This document shows positions 10,651 to 43,148 of a DNA stretch of 64,000 bases, piece after piece. The stretch spans positions 1,111,001-1,175,000 of the forward strand of contig NZ_OY760916.1 of the NCBI RefSeq assembly GCF_963664075.1, in the 5' to 3' direction. A program made the position numbers and the translations under genes. Every line of letters starts with the position of its first letter. Within the stretch, counting starts at the first letter, position 1. The notes below the pieces were generated by a model. That model ran no database searches. It saw only the letters and a program-made list of their open reading frames with translations, and had not been told where the DNA came from. This stretch comes from an uncultured Desulfobulbus sp. (GTDB lineage Bacteria > Desulfobacterota > Desulfobulbia > Desulfobulbales > Desulfobulbaceae).

Positions 10651-11367
10651 ATGTCTTCTGTGGAAAATTGCGTCCGCGTTTTATATACAAGGTTCTCGGC
10701 TCCACTCCCCGCAAATCTTGAAAATTCCTACCTGGAAGCGATACCACAGGCCTTTCAAGGCAGGATTCTGGCGTTTCGACGGTGGCAAGACAGGCAGGCC
10801 TCATTGCTGGGGAAAATGCTTTTGCTCCGATTGTTGCAAACCTATGACCCCGTACGGTTTGGCCGGGAAAAATTAACCAACCTGCAGCAGACCTCCATGG
10901 GGAAGCCCTTTCTTCCTGCAGGGCCCGAGTTCAGTATCTCGCATTCTGGAGAAATGGTTGTCGTTGCTTTGGCTCCAGAAGGGAAAATAGGGATCGATAT
11001 CGAACAAATGGTTGAGCTCAACGTCCAGGATTTACGCGGTTTCGTTCCTGAAATTGATCGATATGACCAAGGGCATGAGGAGGGAATACGCTCATTTTTT
11101 TATCATCATTGGACCCAAAGGGAAGCGGTTGCCAAGGCAAGTGGCATGGGGCTGCTTGGACCAATCGAGACCCTCGTTGTAGATGGAGACAAGGCGTTGT
11201 ATGATGCGACCACCTGGTCTCTACAAAAGATTCCATTGCAGCAGGAGGGGTATGTCAGCCATCTGGCGCTGGACACTCCTCATTATAGTTTTACCCTTGG
11301 AAAGGCTGACTTGATGACACTACTTGCACCCGAGATGATGTCTTTGGCACTGGAGAATGGGCGATGA
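10651..11367 (+). CDS. Sfp-type 4'-phosphopantetheinyl transferase
   Basis: Transfers the phosphopantetheine arm of CoA to the serine of carrier domains; needed for the seven ACP/PCP domains of the adjacent synthetases. 238 residues, normal for the Sfp class. Motifs: GKPFLP followed by FSISHSGEMVVVAL at about residues 91-104, IGIDIEQ at about 112-118 (magnesium-binding Asp and Glu) and HHWTQREAVAKASGMGL at about 151-168, the W-x-x-(K/R)-E-A-x-x-K signature; the usual first Lys is Arg, but the catalytic Glu and last Lys are present. Its stop overlaps the start of the next gene (ATGA), so the two are coupled. First gene of the left arm of the cluster. Confidence 0.93.
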   Translation: MSSVENCVRVLYTRFSAPLPANLENSYLEAIPQAFQGRILAFRRWQDRQASLLGKMLLLRLLQTYDPVRFGREKLTNLQQTSMGKPFLPAGPEFSISHSGEMVVVALAPEGKIGIDIEQMVELNVQDLRGFVPEIDRYDQGHEEGIRSFFYHHWTQREAVAKASGMGLLGPIETLVVDGDKALYDATTWSLQKIPLQQEGYVSHLALDTPHYSFTLGKADLMTLLAPEMMSLALENGR

Positions 11368-11834: not shown

Positions 11835-12045
11835 TGTCATTTTTTTACAGTTTTTTGTTTTTTCTCAACGGTTTGTTTCTATGCTGAGCGCTGTTTTTGT
11901 TGACGTAAAATTCAGGTTCTGTAAGAGAAAGCAGTCCGCCGGACGTTCCATATATTGATACGATTCTCTTGTCGTTCTTTGCAGAACAGCGCTCTTGGTA
12001 AGGCAAGGAGACCTTTGGGGCATCCATCCTACAAGGAGCAAAGTT

Positions 12046-15000
12046 ATGTCGCCAGATCAATATTATATTTTTTCAAAAATCCTGGGTGCTTCGCTTGCAT
12101 TGATGACAGTCTTGGATCCTTCCTGCGTTACAGCAAGTGATGCCGACGAATACAGTGCAATCAGCCAGGTCACCCTTGACGCCTTTGTTGGTAAAACCGG
12201 CATATTCGGGGCGACTGCCGGAGTGCAGTTTTCAGACGGCAGTCGCTGGTTTGGTGCCAGCGGTGTCACCGGGCCGGAGAGTGCCAGTGAAGGTGGACGT
12301 CACCTTACGGTTGATGATCGTTTTCACATCGGCAGCCAAACCAAGACCTATACCGGAGCGGTGATTCTTAAATACGTTGATGCTGATATCCTGGATCTGG
12401 ATCAGTCCATTCAAACTTGGCTTCCGGATTTGACGGTCATGAGCAAGGAGCTGCGCGAGCAAGTGACGATTCGCGATTTGATTAGCCAACGTTCCGGAAT
12501 TGCAGAATATCTCAATGCCCAAGATCCCGGCACCCCCGGTCAAACAATCCTTGATAGTTGGAATGCAGCCAATGGTCGTTATGACCTGAGCCCCAGCCAG
12601 TTGGTCGAGGCTGCGCTTACCTTAGGGCCTACCATGACGCCGGGAGACGTCAACACCTATCAATACTCCAATACCAATTTTCTTCTCTTGGGAATGATTG
12701 CCGAACGAGCCAGCTGTACCACGGCTGCAGGCTGTCAGAGCTTCAAGCAAATTGTTCAGCAGGAAATTTTGATTCCTCTGGGGCTGAGTGAAACTACGTA
12801 CCCTACCGGAATCACATATGATGGTGTCCATACCAATGCCACCTGGAATGACTATGGCGCGCTGAGTGACTTTACCTACCCCAGCCCCGCTATTCCGAAC
12901 ACTGCCGGGGCCATGATTTCAACCGTTGGTGATCAGCTGAACTGGTTGATCGAACTCACCACTAACGCCGAGGGGACTCTTTCACCGGCAACCTTTGCCG
13001 AACGGCTGCAGTGGACTACAAATCTCGATTCCGGGAATGTGGCCGGAGCAAAGGCCGGATACGGCATGGCCATTTATGGGAGCACCAGCCCCACCACAGG
13101 TCAGCCCACTTTAGGGCATGGGGGGGAGATCAGCGGTGTGCAGACCCTGATGTTTCAATTTCCGGAATCCAACCTTTTTATTGTAGGCGATGTCAATACC
13201 TTCCTCTCTATTCCCAATGACCGAACCCTTCCGGCGAGCAGGATTACCGATCTCTACTATGGTTTGGAACGCTCGATCATGACTTTGACTGCAGCAACGG
13301 TCTATGGCGGATCCTGTGTCGGTGGCTATGACCTCACCTGTAGCGGCACGACAGTTCTCCCTCAAGGGGTAACGGCCTCGGGGGATGTCATAATCGAGGC
13401 CTCCGGTAATTACTGGACCAATACTTCGCTGAATTTTTCAGAGCCTATCCCTACCCTTACTGCCTATGGGGAAGACATCACCGCATTGAGCGTAAGCAAT
13501 GGGACCGTCACAATAAAGGGAAATGCTATTGTGGAATCCATCGGTAACGGTTCCACAGCGCTCCATCTAAGCGGTACCCAAAATACGGTGGCTATCAGCG
13601 GGCAATTAAACGCGACCGGATACGGGACAACGGCCCTTGATGGCAGTAGCATCTCCGATGATACGGTTGTCATCCAGCCGACAGGTTCGGTTACAGGCAA
13701 GATTGCGCTTACCAATGGCTCTGATCAAATAATCGCCAACGGCACTGTCACGGGGGATGTGCTCTTGGGGCCCAATGCCACTTTGTGCGGTTCCGGTAAA
13801 ATTTTGGGCCTGCTGACCGGTGGCACGGTAGCTCCAGGAAATTCCATCGGCCTGCTAACAGTCAGTTCATACAATGGCTTTGACTCGACTCTGCAGATGG
13901 AAATAAATGGTGATGCAGTTGCCAGCGATTTATTGAAGGTGGTGGAACAGCAATCCGAGGGGATTCCAGTCGTTGATACGGGGACAGCGTATCTGGGGGG
14001 AGCGATTCTAGAGCTTTCCGGAACCCGCCCCGCAGTGGATAGCCGTTTCCTGTTGCTGGATGCCGATAACAGTCTTTCCGGAAGTTTTAGCACCATCTTG
14101 GATAAGGACCAGCTCCTCCAGGCAACAGGTCGTATTTCCGGAGCGCTTTTGACAGGAACAAAGTCCGTGGTTGCTTCCTGGTCCAGTCCGGCGCCTTTTG
14201 ATGCAGCTATAGATATGCAATACCTCACAAGCCTTGATCGGGCCGACCACAACCTCCAGCGGATGAACCATACCAATACGGGATTGATCGAAAGAAAAGG
14301 GATAACCCCTTTTGCCATGCTCCTGGGGAATTATGCCAATTTTTCCACTGAGGATTCGGTCAGTGGCTACACGATAAAGAGCGAAGGGCTGATGCTGGGG
14401 GTTGATGTTCCCATTGGTCAAGATATGTTCATCGGGATGAATTTTTCTTCGATAATCGGGGCCGCCAAGGTGGATGTGGATGGGGAAGAACAGGAAAGCT
14501 CGGTGCAGAGTCTTGGCCTTTACGGTGCACTTAAAGCTGGTTCCTACACTATTGGGGCCGACTTCAGCATTGGCTATGGAGACATTGATTACAGCAATAA
14601 GGTGACCATTGGTCAGGACCTTGCAACAGCCAAAGGTACATATGACGTCCTGCCACTCACCCTCGGGCTGAGCATGAGCCGAGCTTTCAAAGGGGACGCC
14701 TGGACCACCGATATCACGGGTGATTTAATTTATATGTCGGGGAAGACAAAAGGATTTACGGAAACGGGCATTGCGGAGAATGCAGCATTCACTTTTGAGG
14801 AATACACCTGTGAACGGTTGCGCGCCGGGGTGACGGCAACGCTTTCCAGAAATATGCCGATCGCGCAATGGTACCCCTGGATGTCACTGGGGGTGTTTCA
14901 GCATTTTGACCTTCATTCGCCGGGTATCCAGTATCATTTGGAAAATGGTGCAGCAGCACGGCTCGACATCCGTGATGTCAATGGATTTGAGCCGCGACTG

Positions 15001-15129
15001 GCCGTTGGCTTTCGCCATCAGTTGCAGAATAAGGTGAATATGAATTTCAGTATTGACGGGAGCTTGCGTGACGACACTGTTGCAACGAGGATGATGCTGT
15101 GGTTGAGTGTTCCTTTAGGAGATGAATGA
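12046..15129 (+). CDS. S12-type serine peptidase/beta-lactamase-like domain fused to an autotransporter barrel
   Basis: 1027 residues from the ATG at 12046, which has AAGGAG 7 bases upstream. Signal peptide about residues 1-30. Residues about 35-405 form a class C beta-lactamase / DD-peptidase (S12) domain: SQTK (Ser about 97, Lys about 100), YSN (about 207-209) and HGG (about 358-360), so the active site is complete. Residues about 415-730 are Thr/Ser/Gly-rich beta-helix sequence with GSGKI...GTVAPGNSIGLLTV, typical of autotransporter passengers. Residues about 750-1027 are an outer-membrane barrel with alternating strands, ending in WLSVPLGDE. It should display the enzyme on the cell surface. 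Possible jobs: cell-wall or beta-lactam hydrolysis, or cleavage of a peptide prodrug. Substrate not predictable. Confidence 0.88.
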   Translation: MSPDQYYIFSKILGASLALMTVLDPSCVTASDADEYSAISQVTLDAFVGKTGIFGATAGVQFSDGSRWFGASGVTGPESASEGGRHLTVDDRFHIGSQTKTYTGAVILKYVDADILDLDQSIQTWLPDLTVMSKELREQVTIRDLISQRSGIAEYLNAQDPGTPGQTILDSWNAANGRYDLSPSQLVEAALTLGPTMTPGDVNTYQYSNTNFLLLGMIAERASCTTAAGCQSFKQIVQQEILIPLGLSETTYPTGITYDGVHTNATWNDYGALSDFTYPSPAIPNTAGAMISTVGDQLNWLIELTTNAEGTLSPATFAERLQWTTNLDSGNVAGAKAGYGMAIYGSTSPTTGQPTLGHGGEISGVQTLMFQFPESNLFIVGDVNTFLSIPNDRTLPASRITDLYYGLERSIMTLTAATVYGGSCVGGYDLTCSGTTVLPQGVTASGDVIIEASGNYWTNTSLNFSEPIPTLTAYGEDITALSVSNGTVTIKGNAIVESIGNGSTALHLSGTQNTVAISGQLNATGYGTTALDGSSISDDTVVIQPTGSVTGKIALTNGSDQIIANGTVTGDVLLGPNATLCGSGKILGLLTGGTVAPGNSIGLLTVSSYNGFDSTLQMEINGDAVASDLLKVVEQQSEGIPVVDTGTAYLGGAILELSGTRPAVDSRFLLLDADNSLSGSFSTILDKDQLLQATGRISGALLTGTKSVVASWSSPAPFDAAIDMQYLTSLDRADHNLQRMNHTNTGLIERKGITPFAMLLGNYANFSTEDSVSGYTIKSEGLMLGVDVPIGQDMFIGMNFSSIIGAAKVDVDGEEQESSVQSLGLYGALKAGSYTIGADFSIGYGDIDYSNKVTIGQDLATAKGTYDVLPLTLGLSMSRAFKGDAWTTDITGDLIYMSGKTKGFTETGIAENAAFTFEEYTCERLRAGVTATLSRNMPIAQWYPWMSLGVFQHFDLHSPGIQYHLENGAAARLDIRDVNGFEPRLAVGFRHQLQNKVNMNFSIDGSLRDDTVATRMMLWLSVPLGDE

Positions 15130-15190: not shown

Positions 15191-15931
15191 ATGTATATTC
15201 CATCCTCAGAAAGAGTTGTTGAACAGCACACCATTGATCTGATCTGTCTGCCCTATGCTGGCGGTAACAGCTGTCTTTTGTTTCGGCAGTGGCAACGAAG
15301 TGCGGAAAAGGGCCTGCGTATTCATCCGGTTGCCCTGCCCGGACGTGACAGGTATTTTCATCTGGCGCCACTTGCCGACATGCCATCCATGCTTAACTGG
15401 CTTGATCGGGAAGTAACCCCTCTGCTTACCGGTGATTTTGCCTTGTTTGGCCATTCCATGGGGGCTGTCGTTGCCTATGCCTACGCCTTGAATCTGCAAG
15501 CGGCAAACAGGACTGGGCCCCGCCATCTTTTTGTATCCGCCTCAACCCCACCTTCGACGCCGCGTACGCACCAGCTTCATAAAAAAACTTCGGAGCAGAT
15601 GCGTCAGTATCTCAAGGAGTACGATCCCAAGGGCTACTGTTTTGATGAACATCCGGAGTTGTGGGAGGTCTTTGAACCGGTTTTGCGGGCGGATTTCCAG
15701 TTGGTGGAAACCTATGTACCTCCCGTGGGGGAGAGAACCATTGATTGTCCGATTACCGCCCTATGCGGGACAAGAGACACGGTCGTTGATGCAACGACGA
15801 TGGCGGGCTGGCGTTCTCACACCTCAGGAGCTTTTGCGGCTATTTCGATGGAGGGGGGGCATCTTTTTCTCCGTGACAACCCGTTGGCGGTTTTTGATTG
15901 TGTGAGCAAGCGGTTACCTCGTACGTTGTAA
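15191..15931 (+). CDS. Type II thioesterase (editing enzyme for NRPS/PKS)
   Basis: Stand-alone alpha/beta hydrolase that removes wrong or stalled acyl groups from carrier domains. 246 residues, the normal GrsT/SrfAD size. It has the N-terminal LICLPYAGGNSCLLFRQW, nucleophile elbow GHSMGAV (Ser about 92), ALCGTRDTVV with the catalytic Asp, and GGHLFLRDN with the catalytic His. No signal peptide. It is the last plus-strand gene of the left arm and meets the NRPS operon tail to tail, separated by a terminator hairpin. The 60-base gap after the autotransporter gene allows cotranscription. Confidence 0.92.
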   Translation: MYIPSSERVVEQHTIDLICLPYAGGNSCLLFRQWQRSAEKGLRIHPVALPGRDRYFHLAPLADMPSMLNWLDREVTPLLTGDFALFGHSMGAVVAYAYALNLQAANRTGPRHLFVSASTPPSTPRTHQLHKKTSEQMRQYLKEYDPKGYCFDEHPELWEVFEPVLRADFQLVETYVPPVGERTIDCPITALCGTRDTVVDATTMAGWRSHTSGAFAAISMEGGHLFLRDNPLAVFDCVSKRLPRTL

Positions 15932-16047: not shown

Positions 16048-19000
16048 TCAGCCAGAGATTCCCAGGCTCGCGGCAAGCATATCCATGTCGATCTCCTCGT
16101 TTTCATGAGGGAGTTCCCGGGCTGTATGCAATTCCTGGCAAAAAGTATCTACAAAGTTTTTTGCCGCTTCCTTCTCCATTGCACCGTAATCAATCGTTAC
16201 CGAGATAAACATGCCATCATCTTCAAAATGGGCGAGAATGGCGATGGGGTGTTGTGGTGTGGCTGCTGAGGAGTGTGGTTCCCCCAGTCCATTCCAATCC
16301 ACGGTAAATGGAGTATTAACCTGCTTGTTCTGGGGAGTGGTTGGGCTATTGAGTTGCCCCAAAAAATTGAGAGCAATTGGAGCTACGGCGGAACGTAACT
16401 CCGGATGATCGGAACGCATCCAGGCAAGCAATCCAAAACCAATACCATTGCGGGGAAGATCTGCCATCGGGTCATGGAAGTGACCTGCCGGCACCCAAAC
16501 GGGAACGATCTGGGTAAACCAACCCACGGTTCGTTCGCAGGGGGGAATGGTTGTTGGCAGTTCACGTCCATTGGTCTCGACGGCAATGGGAGCTCCCGGC
16601 CAGCCAAAGGCTTCGGCAGCAGCCGAACCTATCGCCCGTAGGAGAAAGGCCTGCGGTCCACCCGACACGGTCTCCGCCGATTTGAGCAGCGCACTGGTTG
16701 CTGTTGGATCAAGGTCAAGACGATGCATTCGGACCTGGCTGTCGCCATTTTTGGCACGGGGAAGGGGGCAAATGGCGATGCTGCGCGTAATTTCCCGCCA
16801 ATAGGGAAGTTCCGTGGTGGTCACGGGCGACTCTGCCTCGCGGGCAAGGGCTGCGATGATTTCCCCATAGGGGGCTGTGCGTGGGGGCAGGGAACAATCG
16901 GGGTTATTGAGAATCTTTTCCAGATCGGAGAGGAGAATAGTCCAGGACAGGATATCCATCACCATATGGTGTGCCACCAGCAGGAGGCTATTTCCATCGT
17001 CACGTGAGAAATGCAGCCCGCGAAAGAGAGGGGGACGCATCAGGTCGAATCCTCTGTGGGTGGCATTGGCCAGGCGTACCAACTCGTTATCGGCAGTCGA
17101 ACTATCTTGTCCCCTGAGATCATGGAAAGAAACAACCGCAGCCGCGAGTTTCTCAGGTATTTCAAAAAAAGGAGTCTCGGTGCCCGGTTGCAGGTATCCG
17201 CGTAGGACATCGTGTTGCTCCAGCAGCCGGTCAACCGCAGCTGTGAGCGTGTCCTCTGAGACCGGATTTGTGAGTCTGAGGAGAATAGATTGATTGAAAT
17301 GGTTACCTATAGGTAAACCATAGTGATGCAGGAACCACTGCTGGATGGGAGCAAGGTTGGCAGGCCCACTCCATGAGCTGTAGCCTGTAGTCTTTGTCGT
17401 ACGAGCGATTCGGGCAAGTTCCCCTATGCTCTGATAGCGAAAAATCTCAGCCACGGTAAGGCGAATACCCAGGTCTTGCAGGCGGGCAACCGCTTTAATG
17501 GCTGCGATGGAATCACCGCCGCTGGCAAAGAATGAGGTGTCCGCGTCAATCTGCTCCAGATGCAGCAGCTCCCGAAACACGGAGCCAATCACTTCAGCCG
17601 TTCCCTCGAGGGGGGGAGAGCATTCAAGCGATCTGTTGGAAATTGCAGGAAGGAGCAATGAGGGGAGCTCAGCAAAGGCTATTTTCCTGTTGACGGTGAG
17701 TGGGATTGTTTCAATTTCACGGAGCAGATGCGGTGTGGCGAAGCGGGGTAAATGACTGGCCGCGTAGCTGCGAACATCGTCAAGGAAGGTGTCTGCTATC
17801 TGATTTGAGGTGCCGTCCCCGGCGAAGAGATGGCAATGCAAGGGCGTTGTCCTAAAGGTCTCGCTGACATGAGGCAGCTCTACCCGGCAAGTATGCATGC
17901 TTCCGTCGTCAGTCTGCAGGGTGCAGTCAATCCTATAATCCTGGTGGCGTCCGTCACGTCCTGGAAAACGGCTGACGCTCCCCCGCAGGCGATCGCCTTT
18001 GGTGACGGCAAGGCCATTTGGAGAAAAAGCTGCGTACACCGGAAGCCAACTGGAGGAACCCGTTAAAATATCAATGTCTCGATTTGCGCCCACATCCAGT
18101 GTCAGCCAGAGTAAAAAGCCCGTGACTCTGCCGTTGCGCTGGATGGTTAACTCAATTTCATGTTCACTGGCCAGCGCCATCTCCTGGGTGAAGTCCAGGT
18201 GTTCAAAGATATCGCTGGAGGAGAGAATGCTGTTGCGGTCAAGATGACGGACGCAGAGACGCAGATCAAAGGGGCGACCGACCTGGGCGAAGATACGGTT
18301 GATGTACTCTTGGGCAAGTGGGGTAAAACCTGAATCCAGCGCGGACAGCGGGAGTTCAACGGCAGCTATCTTGGTCAGGCTGGTGCGTGGGAGGATATGT
18401 TCAGGAGCGGCAAGCTGGTGGCGGATACCATTGATGATAGCGGCCGCCCCCTCTGAGCCACCGATGGCCCCAACGATCTCGGAGATGCACCAGTCGACCT
18501 TTTCGGGAAGCGCGGTTTCCACCGCATCACCGGTGAGAATGGTGATACGATCTTGGAGATGATGAGCGGCGACACAGTTGCGCGCATGTTGAGCCACCTC
18601 TGGGTTGATCTCCACGGCGTACACATGATGCGCGCCTGCTTCGATTGCCAGGCGTGAGAGTATGGCAAAGGGGCCTGGTCCGATCTCAAGAACTGTGGCT
18701 CCGGGGAGATAACGGCGAAACCCTTCCAGGTAGCGGGCGTTGCGGATGTTATCTGTGGCCATGGCACCATAGACCACCTCATCATAGACGAAAAATTCCG
18801 CCACGGAGGGCCAGAGCGAGACCTTGTTCGGTCGTTTTTTGACCCAGGCCCCAACACCGGTGGGCGCTCCCGGCTCACCCAATACAGAGACAACCGCCTC
18901 CTCAACCTCGGGAGCACTGCGCAAAACATGCAGGACATCGGCCAATTCCAGCCGTTGCCCCGCAATCTTTACCTGATTGTCACGCCTGCCGACATAACTG

Positions 19001-22000
19001 AGGCTACCGTCCTCGTTGAGAAGACAGAAGTCGCCGCTATGATAGATGCGACGATTCTGCTGGCGTGGATCGAGGCCAAAGGCCTGCTGGGTCAGGTCAG
19101 GGCGACCGATGTAGCCACGAGCAAGCCCCGCACCATGCAGGATCAACTCTCCCGGAACCCCAAGGGGAACAGGGCGCGACTGGGCATCGACCAGGCTGAT
19201 TCCGACACCGGGCAGAGGCTTGCCAATGGGGACCGCATGGGCTTGAGCATCCTTTTTCAGGATTCGGTGAAAGGTAGAGCAGACCGAGTTTTCCGCGGGA
19301 CCATAGGCGTTGATGTAGCAGAGGGCGTCGGCAAAACGGTTGACGTCTTCATGGCGAGCGGCTTCTCCAGCGGTGATCAATGTTGTTAACCGTGGAGGTA
19401 AGGGGGCTTGCAAGGCTCCGAGATAACTTGGAGGCAGGGTAATGGTGGTGATCGCTTCTGACTCGAGGAGCTCTTGGAAAGCCGTGGTATCTTCAATGAT
19501 TTCCTGGCTGGTCAGAACCAAAAGTCCTCCGGAGAGCAAGGCCATGAAAATTTCGGAGAGTGCGCCGTCAAAGACAGGGGCGGCAAATTGTAGAACCCGG
19601 GAGGAGGATGTCAGGCCAAAGCCTCTGATCTGGTCGCTGATCATATTGCAAAAACCCGCATGTTCCACCATGACCCCTTTGGGCTCTCCCGTTGAGCCGG
19701 AGGTGAATATAATATAGGCCAAGTTGTCGGGGGCGGGATCTGCAAGGAGTGAGCCGCCGTCTTTTTTGATATCAGTGATTTGGATCAGCTCGCTTTTTGG
19801 GAAAACAAAGGGGGCCTCTGCAGCGGAGAGGACCCAACGGGCACCGCTGAGTTGCAGCACCTGATCGATGCGTGCCTGCGGCCAGCGTTCATCGAGCGGG
19901 ACATAGGTGCCACCGGCCTGCATTATGCCAAGGATTGCGGCCACGGCCTCTATCTTGCGGGCGCCAAATACCGCTATCCTGTCTTCTCTGGACATGCCAC
20001 GTTGCAGTAGTTCTGTTCCAATAATGCGGGCACGCTCGTCTAACTGGCGATAGGTTAAGGTTTGTGAGCCCTCCTTGACAGCCGGTCGGTCGGGGGCCTC
20101 TCTCACCTGAGAGGCGAACATCTGCGGTATGGTGGAGGGGGCATTTGCCTCGGCTGAGCGGTCCAGGGCGGCATGGAAGCTACGCTCTTCAGCGGTGAGG
20201 CAATCCATTTGTTTGACAGGTAACTCCGGGCCTTGAGCCATGAGACTCAGAACCTGTGCGAGGTGCAGGCCCAGCCGATCTATCTGAGCAGCAGTGAATA
20301 AGTCACTGTCATAGTTCAGGTCCAGCTGCAAGGATCTCTCCTCGTTATCCGTGCGGACATGCACCACAAGATCAAACCGGCTGAATTTCCATTCGCTGTC
20401 GTTGCCAAAGGGGGTAATCTCGACCCCGGGGAGTTCAATGCCTGAAAAGGGCTTGTCCATTACCACCAACAGTACATCGCAGATCGGATTGCGCGAGAGA
20501 TTGCGGGGAAGATCAAATAACTGCACCAACTGATCAAAGGGTAGTTCCTGATGATCCAGAGCGGTTTTAGTGGTTTCCGTAACCTGGTTCAGCAGGGTCG
20601 CCAGGGGCTGGGCCAGATCGATCTGATTGCGGAGAACCAGGGTATTTGCAAAAAATCCAATCTGGTTCTGCAGCAGGGGATGGTTCCGCCCCAGGACCGG
20701 GGTGCCGACAACAATATCGTTCTGGCCGGAGTGCCGCTCCAGTACCAGGAGCAGTCCGGTCAAAAGCACGTTGAATAGGGTGGTTTGTCTGGACTGAGCC
20801 AGCATGCGCAGCTCTTCACTTAGATAAGGATCAAGCAGCAATGCCCTGGTATCGCCCTGAAAACGCTGGGCCGCCGGGCGCGGTCCAGCTTCGGCAAGGT
20901 CAAGGACCGGAGGGGTAGGGCCAAGGGTTTCTTTCCAAAAACGATGCAGGCCTTCAAGGTGTTCAGGGTTCTCAAGCCGTTTTTGCTGCCAGGCGGAGAC
21001 ATCGCGGTGTTGAAAATCAAGGGGATGCAGGCGCAGTGCACCGTCTGCGGCGTAGGCTTGGGCCAGTTCTTCTGCAAAGACAGCAAGTGATTCGCCATCA
21101 CAGATGATGTGGTGAAAAGAAAAGAGCAGCAAAATGCCATCCTTTGGTTGCTCGCCTTGCGCGGCAATGATCCTCAAGAGCGGCGCACTGGTCAGGTCAA
21201 AGGGCCGTTGCCGCTCCTTCTCAAGCGCCTTGGTGCAGCGCTCTGCAAAGGAACCGTTCCCCGCTAGAAGGGTACGTTCCACCTTGAGCCCCAGATGGGT
21301 CACCGGCTGTTGGCGTGGTTCTCCATTAACCTTGATAAAACGGGTGCGCAGGATTTCATGCCGTTCAACAACACTGGATATGGCCCGTTCCAACAGTTTC
21401 AGATCAATGTTCCCCTGTGCGAGGAAAGCAAAGGTGAGGTTGTAGGCCACCGGATTCATCCCGAGTTCCTGCAGGGCCCAGAGTCGTCGCTGGGCCGAGG
21501 AGAGTGGATAATGGTCTGTTTCAGGCAGGCGGGGGATGGGGTCAACCGCCTTGTTCTCGGTCTGTTCCAGAAGTTGTGCATGGGCGCGAATCGTAGGCGT
21601 TTTGAAAAAGTTGGCCAGGCTGATATCGCGACCAAATTCTAGGTGCATCCGGGCAATGACCTGGATCGCCTTGAGCGAATCGCCGCCCAGGTGGGCAAAG
21701 GGGGTTTCGACCCCGACCCGTTCCATATCGAGTATTGCAGCCCAGATGCGGGCCAAGCGTTTTTCCGTCGCTCCTTGAGGAGGTGTCGGACCGGCGTCAC
21801 CATGGATCAGTTCGTCCGGTTTGGGGAGGGCCCGGCGGTTAATCTTGCCGTTCATCAGGAGCGGCAACTCTTTGAGCTGTACCAGAAAGCGGGGAATCAT
21901 GTAGGGCGGTAAGGTTTCCCCGAGGTGGGCCCGCACATTATCTACCGTGGCTGGCTGCTCCTCTTTGACGGTGAAGTAGCCAATTAAAAAGGGTTCAGTC

Positions 22001-23343
22001 GTGTTGCTGCGGTCAATAACCACCGCGCATTGCTTTACCCCCTCACAGCGAAGGGCCGCGGCCTCAACATCGCCTCCTTCGACCCTGTTACCCGCTATCT
22101 TGACCTGATTATCTAGGCGGCCCAGACATTCGATGGCACCGTCGGGCAAGGTGCGACCAAGGTCGCCGCTACGGTAGATGATGTCGTTTTGCTGCTCGCC
22201 CAAGGGGTTACGGACAAAGACCGTGCGGGTGGCGGCTTGATCGTTGATATAGCCAAGCGAAGGATAGGCAGTGCGAATACAAATCTCGCCAATTTCACCG
22301 ACCGCGGCTTGCCGGTCTCCTTTGAGGATAAAGGCGGCGGTGTCGGGAAGGGGACGACCGATGGGCAACAGACCGTCATCCAATGATTCGGGGGTGTCGA
22401 TTTCGTGATAGAGCTTGGCTAAAGTAGTTTCCGAGGGGCCATAAAGATTGATAAGGCGGGCGGAAATCCCCGCCACCTGTTGCCAAGCCTTGATGTCACG
22501 GCCAAAGAGCGGTTCTCCCGCAAGAAAGATGTGGGACAGGCCACTCAGATCCGGCGATGTTTCGTTCGTGGCCGCAGCCAGGGTTTGGGTGAGAAGACGA
22601 AAGATGGTGGGCACGCAATGGAGCAGGCTGATCTGTTTTTCCGCCAGCCAACGAGCCAGCAGGCGGGGATTGCCTGCGGTTTCCTCATCAGGGACACAGA
22701 CCGTACCGCCGTGGACAAGGGGGCTGAAGATATCACGTAAGCTGACATCAAAGGTGACCGGTGCCAGTTGTGCCGTCCGTGTTGTAGCATCGAGGGCAAA
22801 GGTCTTGCTCTGCCAGGTGATGAAATGGTTGAGACTCTTAAAGCGGCCAAGCACCCCCTTGGGCGCTCCTGTGGAGCCGGAGGTGAACATCAGGTAACTT
22901 GGGCTGTTCGGTTGCAGTTCCGCAACATCCTTGGAGGGGGATTCGTCCATGCCAATGGTGAGTATTGGTAATGTTCCAGCGATCTTCTTCGCCAGGTCCC
23001 TGTGCCGGGGTGTCGTAAGCAACACCAGCGGTTGTGCCTGTTCGAGCATGGCTAAAATCCGCGATGGAGGCAGTTGCGGGTCAATGGGCATGAAGGCTGC
23101 GCCTGCTCGGGCAACCGCGAGCAGGGCTGTAATATGTGCTCCTCCTCGAGGGGCCAGAATGGCTATTGGTTTGCCAGCGACTGGTTTTTTTGCGCAGGAG
23201 GACAGCCGACTACTTAAGGCAGAGGATCGTGCTGCCAGGGTGGCATAGGAGAGTTGTTCGTCAGGGCAGTCTACTGCGATGGTTTGACCATTGTTTTCAG
23301 CCTGGGCAAGAACCGCGAGGCGTACATCAAAGAGGTTTGTCAT
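16048..23343 (-). CDS. NRPS: A-PCP-C-A(PRMT-like insert)-PCP-E
   Basis: 2431 residues, two modules. A1 about 1-500 (TSGSTGAPKG near 158; pocket D-V-R-H-F-A-L-L-A-K, unassigned); PCP about 530-600 (GGDSL, Ser near 554); C about 615-1050 (HHIICDG near 748); A2 from about 1080 (TSGSTGEPKG near 1218; pocket D-G-S-T-I-A-A-V-C-K, close to Phe/Tyr codes). Between A8 and A10 of A2 lies a methyltransferase of about 320 residues with VLEIGPGPFAILSRLA near 1558, SEIVGAIGGSEG and a C-terminal barrel, resembling protein arginine methyltransferases. Then A10, PCP (GGDSI near 1943) and an epimerisation domain (HHMVMDILSW near 2128, TVGWFTQIVPV, LNFLGQLN). It starts with A, so its first condensation must come from the C domain ending the 4655-residue protein. 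Last gene of the operon. Confidence 0.93.
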   Translation of the reverse strand: MTNLFDVRLAVLAQAENNGQTIAVDCPDEQLSYATLAARSSALSSRLSSCAKKPVAGKPIAILAPRGGAHITALLAVARAGAAFMPIDPQLPPSRILAMLEQAQPLVLLTTPRHRDLAKKIAGTLPILTIGMDESPSKDVAELQPNSPSYLMFTSGSTGAPKGVLGRFKSLNHFITWQSKTFALDATTRTAQLAPVTFDVSLRDIFSPLVHGGTVCVPDEETAGNPRLLARWLAEKQISLLHCVPTIFRLLTQTLAAATNETSPDLSGLSHIFLAGEPLFGRDIKAWQQVAGISARLINLYGPSETTLAKLYHEIDTPESLDDGLLPIGRPLPDTAAFILKGDRQAAVGEIGEICIRTAYPSLGYINDQAATRTVFVRNPLGEQQNDIIYRSGDLGRTLPDGAIECLGRLDNQVKIAGNRVEGGDVEAAALRCEGVKQCAVVIDRSNTTEPFLIGYFTVKEEQPATVDNVRAHLGETLPPYMIPRFLVQLKELPLLMNGKINRRALPKPDELIHGDAGPTPPQGATEKRLARIWAAILDMERVGVETPFAHLGGDSLKAIQVIARMHLEFGRDISLANFFKTPTIRAHAQLLEQTENKAVDPIPRLPETDHYPLSSAQRRLWALQELGMNPVAYNLTFAFLAQGNIDLKLLERAISSVVERHEILRTRFIKVNGEPRQQPVTHLGLKVERTLLAGNGSFAERCTKALEKERQRPFDLTSAPLLRIIAAQGEQPKDGILLLFSFHHIICDGESLAVFAEELAQAYAADGALRLHPLDFQHRDVSAWQQKRLENPEHLEGLHRFWKETLGPTPPVLDLAEAGPRPAAQRFQGDTRALLLDPYLSEELRMLAQSRQTTLFNVLLTGLLLVLERHSGQNDIVVGTPVLGRNHPLLQNQIGFFANTLVLRNQIDLAQPLATLLNQVTETTKTALDHQELPFDQLVQLFDLPRNLSRNPICDVLLVVMDKPFSGIELPGVEITPFGNDSEWKFSRFDLVVHVRTDNEERSLQLDLNYDSDLFTAAQIDRLGLHLAQVLSLMAQGPELPVKQMDCLTAEERSFHAALDRSAEANAPSTIPQMFASQVREAPDRPAVKEGSQTLTYRQLDERARIIGTELLQRGMSREDRIAVFGARKIEAVAAILGIMQAGGTYVPLDERWPQARIDQVLQLSGARWVLSAAEAPFVFPKSELIQITDIKKDGGSLLADPAPDNLAYIIFTSGSTGEPKGVMVEHAGFCNMISDQIRGFGLTSSSRVLQFAAPVFDGALSEIFMALLSGGLLVLTSQEIIEDTTAFQELLESEAITTITLPPSYLGALQAPLPPRLTTLITAGEAARHEDVNRFADALCYINAYGPAENSVCSTFHRILKKDAQAHAVPIGKPLPGVGISLVDAQSRPVPLGVPGELILHGAGLARGYIGRPDLTQQAFGLDPRQQNRRIYHSGDFCLLNEDGSLSYVGRRDNQVKIAGQRLELADVLHVLRSAPEVEEAVVSVLGEPGAPTGVGAWVKKRPNKVSLWPSVAEFFVYDEVVYGAMATDNIRNARYLEGFRRYLPGATVLEIGPGPFAILSRLAIEAGAHHVYAVEINPEVAQHARNCVAAHHLQDRITILTGDAVETALPEKVDWCISEIVGAIGGSEGAAAIINGIRHQLAAPEHILPRTSLTKIAAVELPLSALDSGFTPLAQEYINRIFAQVGRPFDLRLCVRHLDRNSILSSSDIFEHLDFTQEMALASEHEIELTIQRNGRVTGFLLWLTLDVGANRDIDILTGSSSWLPVYAAFSPNGLAVTKGDRLRGSVSRFPGRDGRHQDYRIDCTLQTDDGSMHTCRVELPHVSETFRTTPLHCHLFAGDGTSNQIADTFLDDVRSYAASHLPRFATPHLLREIETIPLTVNRKIAFAELPSLLLPAISNRSLECSPPLEGTAEVIGSVFRELLHLEQIDADTSFFASGGDSIAAIKAVARLQDLGIRLTVAEIFRYQSIGELARIARTTKTTGYSSWSGPANLAPIQQWFLHHYGLPIGNHFNQSILLRLTNPVSEDTLTAAVDRLLEQHDVLRGYLQPGTETPFFEIPEKLAAAVVSFHDLRGQDSSTADNELVRLANATHRGFDLMRPPLFRGLHFSRDDGNSLLLVAHHMVMDILSWTILLSDLEKILNNPDCSLPPRTAPYGEIIAALAREAESPVTTTELPYWREITRSIAICPLPRAKNGDSQVRMHRLDLDPTATSALLKSAETVSGGPQAFLLRAIGSAAAEAFGWPGAPIAVETNGRELPTTIPPCERTVGWFTQIVPVWVPAGHFHDPMADLPRNGIGFGLLAWMRSDHPELRSAVAPIALNFLGQLNSPTTPQNKQVNTPFTVDWNGLGEPHSSAATPQHPIAILAHFEDDGMFISVTIDYGAMEKEAAKNFVDTFCQELHTARELPHENEEIDMDMLAASLGISG

Positions 23344-23384: not shown

Positions 23385-25256
23385 TCAAGTGGGTGAGGAC
23401 AAGCTAAAGGCATCCATCAACAGTTCTGTGGTGAGAACGATCATAAGGTAGTCGTCTTCATAGGTCTGGTTTACAGAGCAATCAGGTCGGAGGGCGCGTG
23501 CTGTCAGGCTGGCAACGGTGTCAGGGTTGAAAATGCCCCGCTGCCGTATGCGCTCCGGTGAAAGGAGATCCATAACCCAGTCCTGGCCCTGGCGGAGGAG
23601 ATGGGGGCTGCCATGGGCAACGAAGCTGAATTTTCTGCGCTGAACCAATTCCTGAGGCAGGAGTTTGGCCCCCAGTTTTTTGAGGAGGTATTTTTCTTCC
23701 CCATCCTTGACCATGATATGCTGAGGAATGCGCCGGGCCACCGCAATGACATCCGGATCAAGAAAGGGATAGCGCGCTTCGACTTGGGCGGCGTAGGCAA
23801 CTCGGTCGGAGTGGTCGGCAAGCAGGTGATCAGCCAGGCGAAGTTTGCAATCGATGTAGGATCGTTTATGGGCCAGGCTGCGGCCTGTCAGTTGATCGTG
23901 GTTGAGGGGGGAACGGGCAAGCGCGGAGAATGCCGCTCGGTTGGCGGCAAGTTCCGGAGAGAGGAGGGCCAGGGTCAGCTCGGCGTGGTTGTTGTAGTTG
24001 CGTTCATAAAAAAAGGAGGCGTCTCCCCAGAGTCGTTCGCGGGTTTCCTCCTCCAACATGGCCTCAAGGTCGTCCAGTTCCTCAAGCCCATTCCCAGTTC
24101 GGGTTTCGTCAAAGCGGTAGCCAACGTAGCCAGCAAACAATTCGTCTGCACCTTCTCCGGTCAAAGTCACTCGCATGTCGTTTTTATGTACTAACTGGGC
24201 CAGGAGCATGGTGCAGGCGTTATAACTTTCCTTGAGCACGGTTTCTCCGTGCCAGACAATGTCTTGCAGGTGAGCAAGAATGCGATCTTGGTCGAAGATG
24301 GCCTCATGATGGCGGGAGCCAATGGCTTGGGTTATTTGGGACTGCCAGGGACGTTCATCGATTTCGGGGATGTTGAAGCCGATGGAAAAGGTGTCGCGGA
24401 TGGTGGCGGAATCAACTTTATGGGCCAGGGTGGCGATCAGTGCTGAGTCAAGTCCACCACTGACATAAAACCCCACAGGAACATCCGCACGCAGCCGTCG
24501 GCTCACAGCTGTGGTCAGGGCAGCTTCCAGCTCTTCAAGGAGCTTCTCTTCCGTGCTTTCTTCCATGTCTGCAGCCTGGGGGAAGTCAAAATCCCAGTAC
24601 TGTTGCACCTCAATCTGCTCTCCTTCAATCCGTAGCCAATGACCGGGAGGGAGGGCGTGAATGCCTTTAAACATAGTCTGGGGGCTGATCAAGCCGGGAA
24701 AAGTGATGACCTGGTCAAGCCCAGCCGGATCGAGTCGGCGTGGCGTCTCAGGGTGTGGCATAAGGGCCTTGATTTCTGAGGCAAAGAGAATGCCGCCGTG
24801 AATTTTGCTCCAGAACAGAGGGGCGATGCCGGTTTGGTCTCGGCCCAGAAACAAGGCCTTACGTTTGGTGTCGTAAACGGCAAAGGCAAATTGTCCGTTG
24901 AGGCGGCCTATGCAGTCCGGTCCCTCCGTGCGAAAGAGATGGGGAATGACCTCAACATCGCAGGAGGTTTGGAAACAGACACCCCGTTTGATGAGTTCCT
25001 GACGCAGCTCCTGGTGATTGTATATTTCGGCGTTTGCCACCGAAACCATGGTCTCATCGTTGGAGTACATGGGTTGATGCCCATGGGCAATATCGACGAT
25101 CGAGAGTCTGCGGCACCCCAGGCCAACCTGTGGGGCCCGGAAATAGGTTTCCTCATCTGGGCCCCGATGTGCTAGAGCCGCGGTCATTGCGTTCAGGGCT
25201 TTCTGGTCGGTTTCTGTGAGGCCGTTGTGGCGATAAATTCCTGCTATTCCACACAT
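23385..25256 (-). CDS. asnB: Asparagine synthetase (glutamine-hydrolysing), AsnB type
   Basis: ATP-dependent amidation of aspartate, or of a related carboxylate, with glutamine as nitrogen donor. 623 residues. The N-terminal glutaminase domain begins MCGIAGIYRHN (catalytic Cys2) and has HRGPDEETYF, GCRRLSIVD and NAEIYNH. The synthetase domain shows VGFYVSGGLDSALIATLA, the pyrophosphatase loop, at about residues 256-273, then SIGFNIPEIDE and LTGEGADELFAGY. It lies 9 bases after the hybrid synthetase gene and 41 bases before the NRPS gene, so it belongs to the same transcript. It could raise the Asn pool for the peptide or amidate an Asp side chain; the last A domain has an Asp-like pocket, which favours later amidation or a pool effect. 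Not decided. Confidence 0.92.
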   Translation of the reverse strand: MCGIAGIYRHNGLTETDQKALNAMTAALAHRGPDEETYFRAPQVGLGCRRLSIVDIAHGHQPMYSNDETMVSVANAEIYNHQELRQELIKRGVCFQTSCDVEVIPHLFRTEGPDCIGRLNGQFAFAVYDTKRKALFLGRDQTGIAPLFWSKIHGGILFASEIKALMPHPETPRRLDPAGLDQVITFPGLISPQTMFKGIHALPPGHWLRIEGEQIEVQQYWDFDFPQAADMEESTEEKLLEELEAALTTAVSRRLRADVPVGFYVSGGLDSALIATLAHKVDSATIRDTFSIGFNIPEIDERPWQSQITQAIGSRHHEAIFDQDRILAHLQDIVWHGETVLKESYNACTMLLAQLVHKNDMRVTLTGEGADELFAGYVGYRFDETRTGNGLEELDDLEAMLEEETRERLWGDASFFYERNYNNHAELTLALLSPELAANRAAFSALARSPLNHDQLTGRSLAHKRSYIDCKLRLADHLLADHSDRVAYAAQVEARYPFLDPDVIAVARRIPQHIMVKDGEEKYLLKKLGAKLLPQELVQRRKFSFVAHGSPHLLRQGQDWVMDLLSPERIRQRGIFNPDTVASLTARALRPDCSVNQTYEDDYLMIVLTTELLMDAFSLSSPT

Positions 25257-39254: not shown

Positions 39255-42200
39255 TCAATGACACGCCTTGCGCATGAAGGTGCGTGCGGAGTTGAGCCAA
39301 TGTGCTCTATGTTGGGGATGAAACATGCTATAGTGGTCACCGGAGACGGTGATAACCGTGCAACTGCCCCGGGTGAGTGACTCCAGTCCTTTTTGAATGC
39401 CCTTGTCTGCAGATGCTTGAGAGGTTTGAGTGAGAAAAGCCAGGATGTCGCCGTGGAGGTGAAATCTGGCTTCGTATCTGTTCCATAAGAATTTGTTATT
39501 ATAGGCAATGCTTTCAAGGTGAGCGAACTGGGCCACACTCATGGTACGCCGTAAGATGGTTATGACCTGTGACCAGTAGCGTCGATTTGTAAGGGCACTG
39601 AGTCCTTCAAAAAACAGTGGTTGTTGCGCGGTCTCTGCTTGACGCGGTGCGCCGTCAAAGAGCAACAGAGAGGGGATGCGGCCCTTTTCTTCGAGTTGGC
39701 GTGCCATTTCAACGGCGAGAGTTGCCCCAAAGGACCAGCCAAGCAACACTTGATACTGCATGCCCTGGTCAGGGAGCACAGCAAGCATCTGTTCGACCAT
39801 GTTTTCAAGGGAGGGAGCCAGGGAGCCGTCAGTAAGGCCTGGGCAATCGATACCATCAACGCCCAGGTCCAGATTCATGGCATCAAGTAATTCTTTGTAG
39901 ACAGAGGCAACGCCCAATGCCGGAGGCAGGCACAAGACGCTCGCACATTCCTGATTTCGGCAGAGTACGGTGTAGGACCTTTCTTGAAGCGGGCCAGTAT
40001 CAATGCGCCGAGCCAAATCCAAGAGTGTGGGATATTCAAAGAAGGTTTGAATGGTGAGGGCCGAATCGAATTCCCTGCGGACTTCAGCAGCCACCTGAAG
40101 GGCTCGAAGACTGTTGCCCCCAAGTGCGAAAAAGTCATCATCCCGACCAATCCGCTCCACCTTAAGGACCCGCTGCCATATCGCAGCCAGGCGCTGTTCC
40201 GTTGAGGTTTGTGGAGGTATGTTCGAGAACGTTTCCCGGGATCGGTTAATAGCGCTGCGCAGCATGGCTTCCCGATCTGGTTTGCCATTTTCTTTGATCA
40301 GCAGGCGATGGACAAAAAAGAGCTGTGCCGGAATCTGGGCGGGTAAAAGGCGGGAGGAAAGTTGTTTTTTAATGTCAGCTGGTTGCAACTCTGCTGCAGC
40401 TGATTGGACAAAGGCGAGCAGCTGGGCTTCGGTTGTTGCGCTTTGGCGATCGAAAACAACCACAGCATCGTCGACTCCTGGAACCTGGCGAAGTGCTGCC
40501 TCGGTTTCTCCCGCATTGACCCGAAAACCACGGATCTTGATCATGTCATCGCTTCTTCCCAAGTACTCCAGTTGGCCATGCTCGGTGATACGGGCCCGGT
40601 CTCCTGTACGGTAAGTGGTTGTCTTGTCTGTGTGGGTGAAACCACCGGTACCGCCGTTGATGTATCCCCTGGCTGCAGCGCGTCCCTCGACCACCAATTC
40701 CCCCTCAATACCCTGGGGTACTGGCGACCCGTGGCGATCACGGATGTGAACGCTCGTATTGGCAACAGGGGTTCCGATGTATTGGCCGCTAATTTTGCTG
40801 ACCTCTTTCACCTGCCCCAGGGACATCATGGCGCAGCCGATGGTCGTTTCCGTGGGGCCGTAATGGTTGACCACCTGAAGCCATGGGCAATAGAGGGAGA
40901 GGAGTCCCAGATCGCGGCGGTCGAACATCTCTCCACCCAAAATCAAAAGGCGCCAATGATGCAGACTTGAAAGTGCATGGAGTTCTGGACTTGAGAGCAA
41001 GAGGCGAAGGTACGAAGGGGTGCATTTCAGAGTGGTTACCTGTCGTGTGGCCATGGTCTCGATGACGCGAAATGGGTCCACCAGAATGTGTTGTTGGGTC
41101 CAATGGAGTGTCCCTCCTGCCAGCAGGATGGGAAAGAGGGTCGTATAGCCCAGGTCAAAGGCCGGTGAGCTGACTTGCAATGCTGCATCTGTTGCTTGCA
41201 ATCCCAGAACATTCACTGCGTGGTGGCAATAGTTACTCAATGCCTCCATGCCCACGGCAACCCCTTTGGGCCGGCCGGTTGATCCGGAGGTGTAGATAAT
41301 ATAGGCAATATCGGGCGTGATTGGCTCTGGCGGCGAAGATGTGCAGTTTTCCTGGTTATATCTGATTGCACCTTGGGGGCAGGGATAAGTGGTCTGTTCG
41401 GGCCGGAGGGCTGGTGTCAAAAGGCACTTCACCCTACTGTCTGTAAGAGCAAAGGCTGCTCGCTCTGCTGGCCAGTCTGGAGCAATGGGCACAAAGCTTG
41501 CGCCGATGCGCCAGGCTGCCAGTATCCCTATCAGGACATCGTTTCCGGGTTCAACAAGAATACCGACATGATCGCCCTCACCAATGTTGTGTGTGTGTGT
41601 GAGCATAACTGCCGTGGCGTTGACAGCTTTTTCCAAGGCGGTCGCAGAGAGGGCGGAATGCGCGTCCACAGTGATCGTACGGGTGCCGTTTCCCGCCAAG
41701 ATGTTGGTGAGGAGAGAGGGCAGAGGGACAATGGACTTGGCACGAGGGCCTTTCAGTGTGGCTGTGGCCAACACAGCGGACGGGAAAATGGGTGCAGTGT
41801 TGGGATCGAGATTCGGTGTTGCGACGGCGAGTTGTAAAGCTGAGTTCAGCATTTCGAGAAGCTTGGCAATGTCTCTCGGCTGAAAGCGGCCGTGGCGGAA
41901 CTTGGCTTCGAAGTAGGCCTCGCTTCCCAGAGAAAAGCCTATTTGGAAATCATAGTGGTCCCAGGATTCAAAATGAAAGTTTGCAAGGCAGAGGCCAACA
42001 CTGGGAAAGCTCAGTTGTTCCGTGTCCTCGCCGGAGAGCAGGGCCGTTCGACCGATAATCGTGTGATCGATATGACCGGCGTTTATGTTGCCTGCCAAAA
42101 GCATCTCTGCAAGGGAGGCTGCAGACCAGACCGCAGTTTTCTGCAGATCTTCGTGTACTTGGCCAAAGAGAGCTTCAATGCTTTTGGCCTCGCCGATATC

Positions 42201-43148
42201 CACTCTGAGCAGGACCGTGGAGATAAACATGCCGATGACGCGATCGATATCCGGAAATTCGGCAGGACGGTTGGCACGGACCACGGACAGAAGGACTTCG
42301 CTGCGATCCTGCAATCGTGCCAGCACCCAGCCCCAGAGTGCGTGCAGAATGGACGTTGTGGGAATGGAAAGTTTCCCTGACAGCTGCGTCAAGGCCTGCA
42401 TGGTTGCAGGATCGATTAACCGAGCTGCTCGATCATAACCACCCGGGGGGGCATTTTTGTTAAGATAGGGTAGGGGAGACATCCCCTCAACTCCCGCCAG
42501 GTAGTCTCGCCAGAAAGCGGTGTTTGCTCCCCCTCGTCGATCGTTCTGTGCCCGAATGACGTCCCCGAACTGCGTTCGCGGAGGAGGATGAAGTTCATTG
42601 GCCTGGCCCATGGCATGTGCATAAAGGGCCATGAGATCTTCAAGGAGAAGGGGGGTGCACCATGCATCAAAAATGAGATGGTGCAAGGTGACAATGAGGC
42701 GATATTTCGTTGACGCGGTTTGAAGAAGGCTGATTCGTACCAGGGGCTCACGCGCGAGGTCAAAGGGGGCCTGGCGATCTGACCTCGCCCGCTCGGCGCA
42801 GATTTTTTCTTTATCGCTACAGCCTGTAAGGTTTTGGGAAAAAAAACGGAGCGGTCGGGTTTTCAAGACCACCTGCCTTGGACCTTTCCCGGGAATTTCG
42901 GTAAAGGCAGTTCGTAGCATGGGGTGCCGCTTGGCTAGAGCGTTCCAGGCACCTTGAAAGTGATCAGGTTGCAATGTGCCATCCACCGTGCAGGAAAATT
43001 GTTCATTATAGACAGGGGGGGAATCGGTGGATCCGGTGCTCTCTATATGAAGCTTGTATTCAGTATAGATGCCTTCCTGCAGGCCTGTGAGCGGAAAGAT
43101 ATCTTCTATCGCTGCACTGGCTTTGTTTTGAGGTGTATCAGTAACCAT
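39255..43148 (-). CDS. Terminating NRPS: C-A-PCP-TE
   Basis: 1297 residues, one full module plus release. C about 1-440 with IFPLTGLQEGIYTEY and HHLIFDAWC near 159, the form seen in condensation domains that accept a D-residue donor; this fits the epimerase ending the 2431-residue NRPS. A about 470-970 (YTSGSTGRPKG near 620; pocket D-L-T-K-I-G-H-I-G-K, nearly identical to known Asp codes such as DLTKVGHIGK). PCP (GGNSL near 1009). Thioesterase with GWSFGATLA (Ser near 1138), an FDGAP region and GDHYSM His: hydrolysis or ring closure. It acts last but is the first synthetase gene transcribed. AGAGGACAT precedes the ATG; 21 bases separate it from the next gene. Confidence 0.93.
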   Translation of the reverse strand: MVTDTPQNKASAAIEDIFPLTGLQEGIYTEYKLHIESTGSTDSPPVYNEQFSCTVDGTLQPDHFQGAWNALAKRHPMLRTAFTEIPGKGPRQVVLKTRPLRFFSQNLTGCSDKEKICAERARSDRQAPFDLAREPLVRISLLQTASTKYRLIVTLHHLIFDAWCTPLLLEDLMALYAHAMGQANELHPPPRTQFGDVIRAQNDRRGGANTAFWRDYLAGVEGMSPLPYLNKNAPPGGYDRAARLIDPATMQALTQLSGKLSIPTTSILHALWGWVLARLQDRSEVLLSVVRANRPAEFPDIDRVIGMFISTVLLRVDIGEAKSIEALFGQVHEDLQKTAVWSAASLAEMLLAGNINAGHIDHTIIGRTALLSGEDTEQLSFPSVGLCLANFHFESWDHYDFQIGFSLGSEAYFEAKFRHGRFQPRDIAKLLEMLNSALQLAVATPNLDPNTAPIFPSAVLATATLKGPRAKSIVPLPSLLTNILAGNGTRTITVDAHSALSATALEKAVNATAVMLTHTHNIGEGDHVGILVEPGNDVLIGILAAWRIGASFVPIAPDWPAERAAFALTDSRVKCLLTPALRPEQTTYPCPQGAIRYNQENCTSSPPEPITPDIAYIIYTSGSTGRPKGVAVGMEALSNYCHHAVNVLGLQATDAALQVSSPAFDLGYTTLFPILLAGGTLHWTQQHILVDPFRVIETMATRQVTTLKCTPSYLRLLLSSPELHALSSLHHWRLLILGGEMFDRRDLGLLSLYCPWLQVVNHYGPTETTIGCAMMSLGQVKEVSKISGQYIGTPVANTSVHIRDRHGSPVPQGIEGELVVEGRAAARGYINGGTGGFTHTDKTTTYRTGDRARITEHGQLEYLGRSDDMIKIRGFRVNAGETEAALRQVPGVDDAVVVFDRQSATTEAQLLAFVQSAAAELQPADIKKQLSSRLLPAQIPAQLFFVHRLLIKENGKPDREAMLRSAINRSRETFSNIPPQTSTEQRLAAIWQRVLKVERIGRDDDFFALGGNSLRALQVAAEVRREFDSALTIQTFFEYPTLLDLARRIDTGPLQERSYTVLCRNQECASVLCLPPALGVASVYKELLDAMNLDLGVDGIDCPGLTDGSLAPSLENMVEQMLAVLPDQGMQYQVLLGWSFGATLAVEMARQLEEKGRIPSLLLFDGAPRQAETAQQPLFFEGLSALTNRRYWSQVITILRRTMSVAQFAHLESIAYNNKFLWNRYEARFHLHGDILAFLTQTSQASADKGIQKGLESLTRGSCTVITVSGDHYSMFHPQHRAHWLNSARTFMRKACH

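Follow-up and report, generated by a model that had tools for sequence, protein, structure and literature searches.

The window analysed here is a 64,000-nucleotide stretch of the genome of an uncultured Desulfobulbus sp. (contig NZ_OY760916.1, positions 1,111,001 to 1,175,000). Its minus strand encodes P0001, a nonribosomal peptide synthetase (NRPS) protein of 2431 amino acids (open reading frame 16048-23343), and the second adenylation (A) domain of this protein is interrupted by an insert resembling protein arginine methyltransferases (PRMTs).

The interrupted adenylation domain of P0001

Pfam and motifs give P0001 the domain order A-PCP-C-A-PCP-C/E (PCP, peptidyl carrier protein; C, condensation; E, epimerisation). 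Its features, in the order of translation, are as follows (Pfam and NCBIfam borders in residues).

21826..23307, minus: first A domain, without insert (Pfam AMP-binding in two stretches, AMP-binding_C 426-500; NCBIfam matches 13-507)
20182..21519, minus: condensation domain of the insert-bearing module (Pfam Condensation 609-1054)
19111..20118, minus: host adenylation core, pocket DGSSIAAVC, predicted tyrosine-like (Pfam AMP-binding 1076-1411; pocket from motif anchoring)
18934..18972, minus: A8 motif VKIAGQRLELADV (residues 1458-1470), upstream border of the insert
17779..18846, minus: PRMT-like methyltransferase insert, approximately residues 1500-1855
18448..18483, minus: double-Glu loop SEIVGAIGGSEG with Glu 1622 and 1631, invariant and aligned with the Glu of PRMT6 and PRMT9
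17662..17754, minus: A9/A10 end of the A domain with the A10 Lys (NRK), found by motif; Lys invariant in 6/6 aligned sequences
17410..17586, minus: PCP domain of the insert-bearing module (Pfam PP-binding 1920-1978)
16051..17400, minus: C-terminal condensation-superfamily domain, probably of epimerisation type, borders approximate (second Pfam Condensation stretch; HHMVMDILS 2125-2133)

The second A domain is split by ~356 residues between A8 and A9/A10 (1864-1894), where it resumes with HLPRFATPHLL (1864-1874) and NRK (1885-1887), the latter in place of the usual NGK. The core motifs were retained, together with the A10 lysine, in all six aligned sequences, and judged by its motifs the interrupted domain looks intact. 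The C-terminal domain is probably an epimerase, as in cryptophycin, with HHMVMDILS presumed to mark this type. The motifs on which the initial annotation had built were all found within the insert, namely VLEIGPGP (1551-1558), SEIVGAIGGSEG (1621-1632), SWLPVYAAFSPN (1765-1776) and KGDRL (1782-1786).

The insert compared with arginine and N-methyltransferases

The insert had been described as a complete arginine-methyltransferase-like domain. Motif borders, matches to Protein Data Bank (PDB) sequences and the predicted fold bore this out, placing a PRMT-type core, double-Glu loop and barrel at the A8-A9/A10 site. The relationship to PRMTs was judged by profile scores and predicted fold. A phmmer search of PDB sequences with the single insert retrieved PRMT6 at 9.3e-12, far above chance, and matched yeast Hmt1 (1g6q) over nearly its full length (query 27-316, 4.4e-9). 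With a profile of 14 insert members, PDB sequences were matched at E-values down to 5e-26, and no NRPS chain was present either in the best 60 of the 102 sequences matched or in the 55 with an E-value of at most 1e-15. Both the PRMT core and the C-terminal barrel were present in the profile match and in the predicted fold, and the insert alone passed the Pfam PRMT5 cut-off (25.7 bits against 22.9).

The insert has the core, the double-Glu spacing and the barrel in common with PRMT6, PRMT7, PRMT9, CARM1 and Hmt1. Both loop Glu were invariant in the 14 aligned members, as were the glycines of the S-adenosylmethionine (SAM) site across this divergent set, and both Glu were also present in six further distinct strong members (L038, L040, L041, L043, L044 and L045). 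At the position of the PRMT dimerisation arm, a region of comparable length aligned to PRMT6, with model confidence there partly low. The insert differs from PRMTs in being embedded in an NRPS, in having no evident arginine substrate, in a SAM motif I that is longer by one residue, and in the loop that reads THW in PRMTs and SSW in the window. Only the Trp of these three positions was invariant across the aligned family.

The site is the usual one for a backbone N-methyltransferase, and the insert could in principle be an ordinary enzyme of that kind whose PRMT likeness comes only from the shared Rossmann core. Indeed, antiSMASH initially called two N-methyltransferases in HcaA, the counterpart of the insert among them (PMC10949194), and hhalign of the insert family against three canonical N-methyltransferases gave a weak match (probability 37%, E 0.00035), that is, the shared core. 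These three come from loci L015, L019 and L020, in which a second methyltransferase lies downstream of the PRMT-like insert in the same module; thus, two distinct types can share one NRPS module. They matched the NRPS structure 5wmm (TioS) at 8.5e-67, with nothing named PRMT among 51 matched sequences. Scored on the insert profile, they gave 5.5, 2.7 and -1.7 bits; the range was 74.2-130.9 bits for seven PRMT-like proteins that stand alone in bacteria, a comparison set biased by its retrieval with the insert as query. In a 24-row tree, the N-methyltransferases split off on a branch of length 2.86 (support 100/100), and the seven PRMT-like proteins grouped together (98/96) next to the inserts; the inserts themselves lacked a resolved inner order, and six of the rows did not pass the composition test. 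Furthermore, the PRMT match extends into the barrel. PDB matches, profile scores and tree thus agree with the earlier view that the insert lies outside the ordinary N-methyltransferase group, and we rejected identity with that group as very unlikely.

Only in L020 do both methyltransferases lie within one A domain. In L015 (3166-11787) and L019 (3160-11802), the A10 motif closes the A domain after the PRMT-like insert, and a stretch resembling a second A-domain C-terminal part then starts and carries the N-methyltransferase. This arrangement has the appearance of a duplicated C-terminal subdomain with one methyltransferase apiece.

Host pocket, related systems and the predicted reaction

Motif anchoring gave the host pocket DGSSIAAVC, which is aromatic-like and not arginine-like, as the initial annotation had stated. 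By the tyrosine pocket code it appears tyrosine-like, and it resembles the host pockets of the relatives in Nostoc (L021, DASSIAGIG) and Tistrella (L020, DASTLAAVC), read in the same way. Of the 16 distinct hosts that could be read, 14 had Ser at position 239 (11 of a first set plus L038, L043 and L044; L042, almost certainly the L020 locus again, was left out), and these 16 are not independent, since L043 and L044 appear closely related to L020, L011 to the window and L015 to L019. Among 16 other adenylate-forming domains of the same loci, none of the 11 readable ones had Ser there, with several rows on both sides of the comparison being close orthologues. A literature search on the pocket code found nothing.

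The two named relatives are full-length homologues of the insert. The first, in Nostoc sp. ATCC 53789, is 40.3% identical over 90% of the query. Its gene is flanked on one side by a type I polyketide synthase (PKS) gene and on the other by a gene with an SDR oxidoreductase annotation, followed by genes for a P450, a TauD-type dioxygenase, an aspartate decarboxylase and an FAD-dependent oxidoreductase. The strain has the cryptophycin cluster crpA-H, with 3-chloro-O-methyl-D-tyrosine as unit B of the product (PMC6835634), and by strain, position, architecture and neighbours the Nostoc NRPS fits CrpC. It has the layout docking-C-A(insert)-PCP together with another condensation-type stretch, which from the C domain onwards is common with the window module, and the O-methyl-D-tyrosine of cryptophycin is also the residue predicted for the window. 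Unlike the window, it is cyanobacterial, has a TubC docking domain and the pocket DASSIAGIG, and its product is chlorinated.

The second relative, in the terminal NRPS of the didemnin producer Tistrella mobilis KA081020-065, is 37.7% identical over 94% of the query and is encoded on plasmid pTM3, presumably the carrier of didA-didJ. Didemnin contains N,O-dimethyl-tyrosine. The protein is organised as C-A(insert, N-methyltransferase)-PCP-thioesterase; its pocket is tyrosine-like, as in the window, from which it differs by the canonical N-methyltransferase behind the insert and the terminal thioesterase. The strain carries didA-didJ (PMC9964501); we did not apply the name DidJ to this protein because PMC10811503 gives it to a type II thioesterase.

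Published systems resemble the insert by description. LynB3-OMT of the lyngbyapeptin B synthetase likewise lies within an A domain and is arginine-methyltransferase-like, and because of that similarity it is presumed to methylate the tyrosine phenol (PMC10127204). Unlike the window insert, it is paired with an N-methyltransferase, and the available text of that paper mentions no epimerase. VatN OMT (vatiamide) and HcaA-MT1 (hectoramide B) are predicted to methylate tyrosine phenols and group together, apart from N-methyltransferases, in a published tree; PRMT likeness is not mentioned in the available part of this source (PMC10949194). KtzH and ColG also carry out side-chain O-methylation from an a8-a9 insert (PMC11355689; ColG also PMC10127204), but they act on serine (PMC11355689).

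The initial annotation had found the modified atom not obvious. The homologues in the cryptophycin and didemnin-plasmid modules, together with LynB3-OMT, provide an answer, and by analogy with these relatives the chemical puzzle appears largely solved. The PRMT fold and both retained catalytic-type Glu would also suit a true arginine methyltransferase acting on the guanidino nitrogen of an arginine-like residue in the growing peptide. Against this stand the aromatic-like host pocket, the O-methyl-tyrosine of cryptophycin and the SSW loop. None of the further pockets that could be read in the window (DVR.., DFW.. and DLT..) is known as an arginine pocket, DVR.. being without assignment. We rejected arginine methylation, chiefly on the host pocket and the cryptophycin residue, as scarcely credible.

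We therefore favour, with a probability of about 85%, a PRMT-related O-methyltransferase that acts on the phenol of PCP-bound tyrosine and supplies O-methyl-D-tyrosine to a lipopeptide. Because the enzymes that house its nearest relatives produce O-methyl-tyrosine, the insert most likely decorates tyrosine and belongs to the PRMT-like tyrosine O-methyltransferase inserts, a known but little-studied arrangement. The A domain would load tyrosine onto the PCP and the insert would methylate the phenol oxygen with SAM, the two conserved Glu probably helping to position or deprotonate the phenol. The terminal domain of P0001 would then epimerise the residue, and O-methyl-D-tyrosine would enter the lipopeptide built by the neighbouring proteins. 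This would correct the reading of one lipopeptide cluster and give a clear product prediction. The inserts are also a testable set for the apparent use of the PRMT scaffold in oxygen methylation, and an insert structure would reveal how a double-Glu site handles a phenol.

Several observations weigh against these readings. As to the PRMT likeness, when the whole of P0001 was scanned, Pfam PRMT5 was narrowly missed (22.3 against 22.9), and PRMT_C stayed under its cut-off for the insert (19.5 against 27). The SSW loop also departs from PRMTs. As to tyrosine O-methylation, model confidence was low at the double-Glu loop (pLDDT <50, insert residues 135-142). The pocket was read via motif anchoring, and calling it tyrosine-like depends on general specificity codes. 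Two of the 16 readable hosts deviate at position 239 (by eye, Phe in L040 and Ala in L045), weakening any strict need for Ser there; L041 is cut before the pocket and was not readable, and the relatives L016 and L017 are free-standing and so provide no host A domain. In the sources available, the assignments for this subfamily are predictions from product structures, and our literature searches of them gave no in-vitro assay of any of its enzymes. Nothing relevant was found in the available parts of PMC5577590 and PMC10051162.

The two deviating pockets, and the predicted nature of the activity, would also be compatible with an insert that is dead or that methylates another group, such as a ring carbon or an aromatic residue altered by hydroxylation or in some other way. 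The SAM-site glycines and both Glu are invariant across 14 divergent members, which argues against this, as does conservation of the gene pair formed by P0001 and an asparagine-synthetase-like gene. An orthologous NRPS, 79% identical over 2431 columns, lies beside such a gene in Desulfobulbus rhabdoformis (L011), and orthologues of 47-48% identity do so in the purple sulfur bacteria Thiorhodococcus drewsii and Imhoffiella purpurea; by these orthologues, the organism of the window is probably related to Desulfobulbus. We consider a dead or differently aimed insert unlikely.

Beyond tyrosine O-methylation itself, we offer a more speculative reading. A PRMT branch may have been captured by NRPS A domains and re-aimed from the guanidine nitrogen to the phenol oxygen, keeping both Glu and possibly the dimerisation arm, such that the insert could pair two synthetase chains. 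The arrangement would be rare but spread over Desulfobulbus-like anaerobes and purple sulfur bacteria as well as Alphaproteobacteria, Cyanobacteria and Chloroflexota, and annotation pipelines could take it for an N-methyltransferase.

Distribution and gene neighbourhood

Among 72,556 plasmid records, nine had a relative at E up to 1e-8, in Nostoc, on Tistrella pTM3 and on seven Streptomyces plasmids. In the phylum sample, 9/395 genomes had a match passing E 1e-7, with the own genome counted; besides it there was one NRPS-embedded copy (G170, 50%), and the other seven matches shared 25-36% identity within open reading frames of 331-571 amino acids. Three of 95 relatives passed E 1e-8, with the window genome counted. 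At E 1e-50, at least 3/386 genomes of the phylum of a Scytonema genome and at least 5/385 of the class of an Acidisphaera genome were positive, centre genomes counted; both are lower bounds, with up to five candidates scored per genome. A pattern scan of genome contigs gave nine loci; in seven of them the domain is part of an NRPS, and in two it is free-standing. The weak loci L027, L028, L029 and L039 had neither the double-Glu pattern nor the pocket and were not counted as members. The own genome held no second clear copy of the insert, its three further matches scoring 21-25 bits.

The two free-standing methyltransferases (L016, 5716-7071, and L017) are cyanobacterial, and by eye their N-terminal stretch resembles a TubC-type docking domain. 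The genome of Acidisphaera sp. S103, which holds L015, also has a second, divergent PRMT-like insert in an A domain (L038). Around three of the seven Streptomyces plasmid relatives, no NRPS gene was annotated within ~8 kb. The Streptomyces plasmid homologue in L022 (7926-9029), L023 and L024 stands alone (~32% identity). It belongs to a conserved gene set that also encodes an amidinotransferase, a nitroreductase and an arginine-deiminase-family protein, and its match is spread over two frames in L023 and L024.

The window also holds the following genes around P0001.

10651..11367, plus: phosphopantetheinyl transferase (Pfam)
15191..15931, plus: stand-alone thioesterase (Pfam)
23385..25256, minus: asparagine-synthetase-like amidotransferase (NCBIfam asn_synth_AEB); adjoins the P0001 orthologue in L011, L012 and L018
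25266..39233, minus: P0003, hybrid fatty-acyl ligase/PKS/aminotransferase/NRPS, upstream part of the assembly line (Pfam and motifs; putative ligase type)
39255..43148, minus: C-A-PCP-thioesterase NRPS, probable last module (Pfam)

By Pfam, P0003 has an AMP-binding domain (by position like a fatty acyl-AMP ligase, FAAL), ketosynthase (KS), acyltransferase (AT), class III aminotransferase and NRPS domains. It ends in a C domain and P0001 starts with an A domain, which suggests the assembly order P0003, P0001, P0004. A FAAL/KS/AT/aminotransferase/NRPS protein combined with a C-A-PCP-thioesterase protein suggests a beta-amino-fatty-acyl lipopeptide as the product, following a logic like that of mycosubtilin. 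By motifs, P0003 contains a C-PCP that lacks an A domain, and two more consecutive condensation domains before its sole readable amino-acid A domain; a module may be skipped here or loaded in trans. The adjacency of the asparagine-synthetase-like gene and the NRPS is kept in four genomes, the window's counted, and the amidotransferase may amidate an acid of the peptide.

Beside the NRPS cluster, 11995-15129 (plus strand) encodes a serine beta-lactamase-family passenger with an autotransporter beta-domain (PF00144, PF03797), and the DNA of this region is ~75% identical in D. rhabdoformis (L011).
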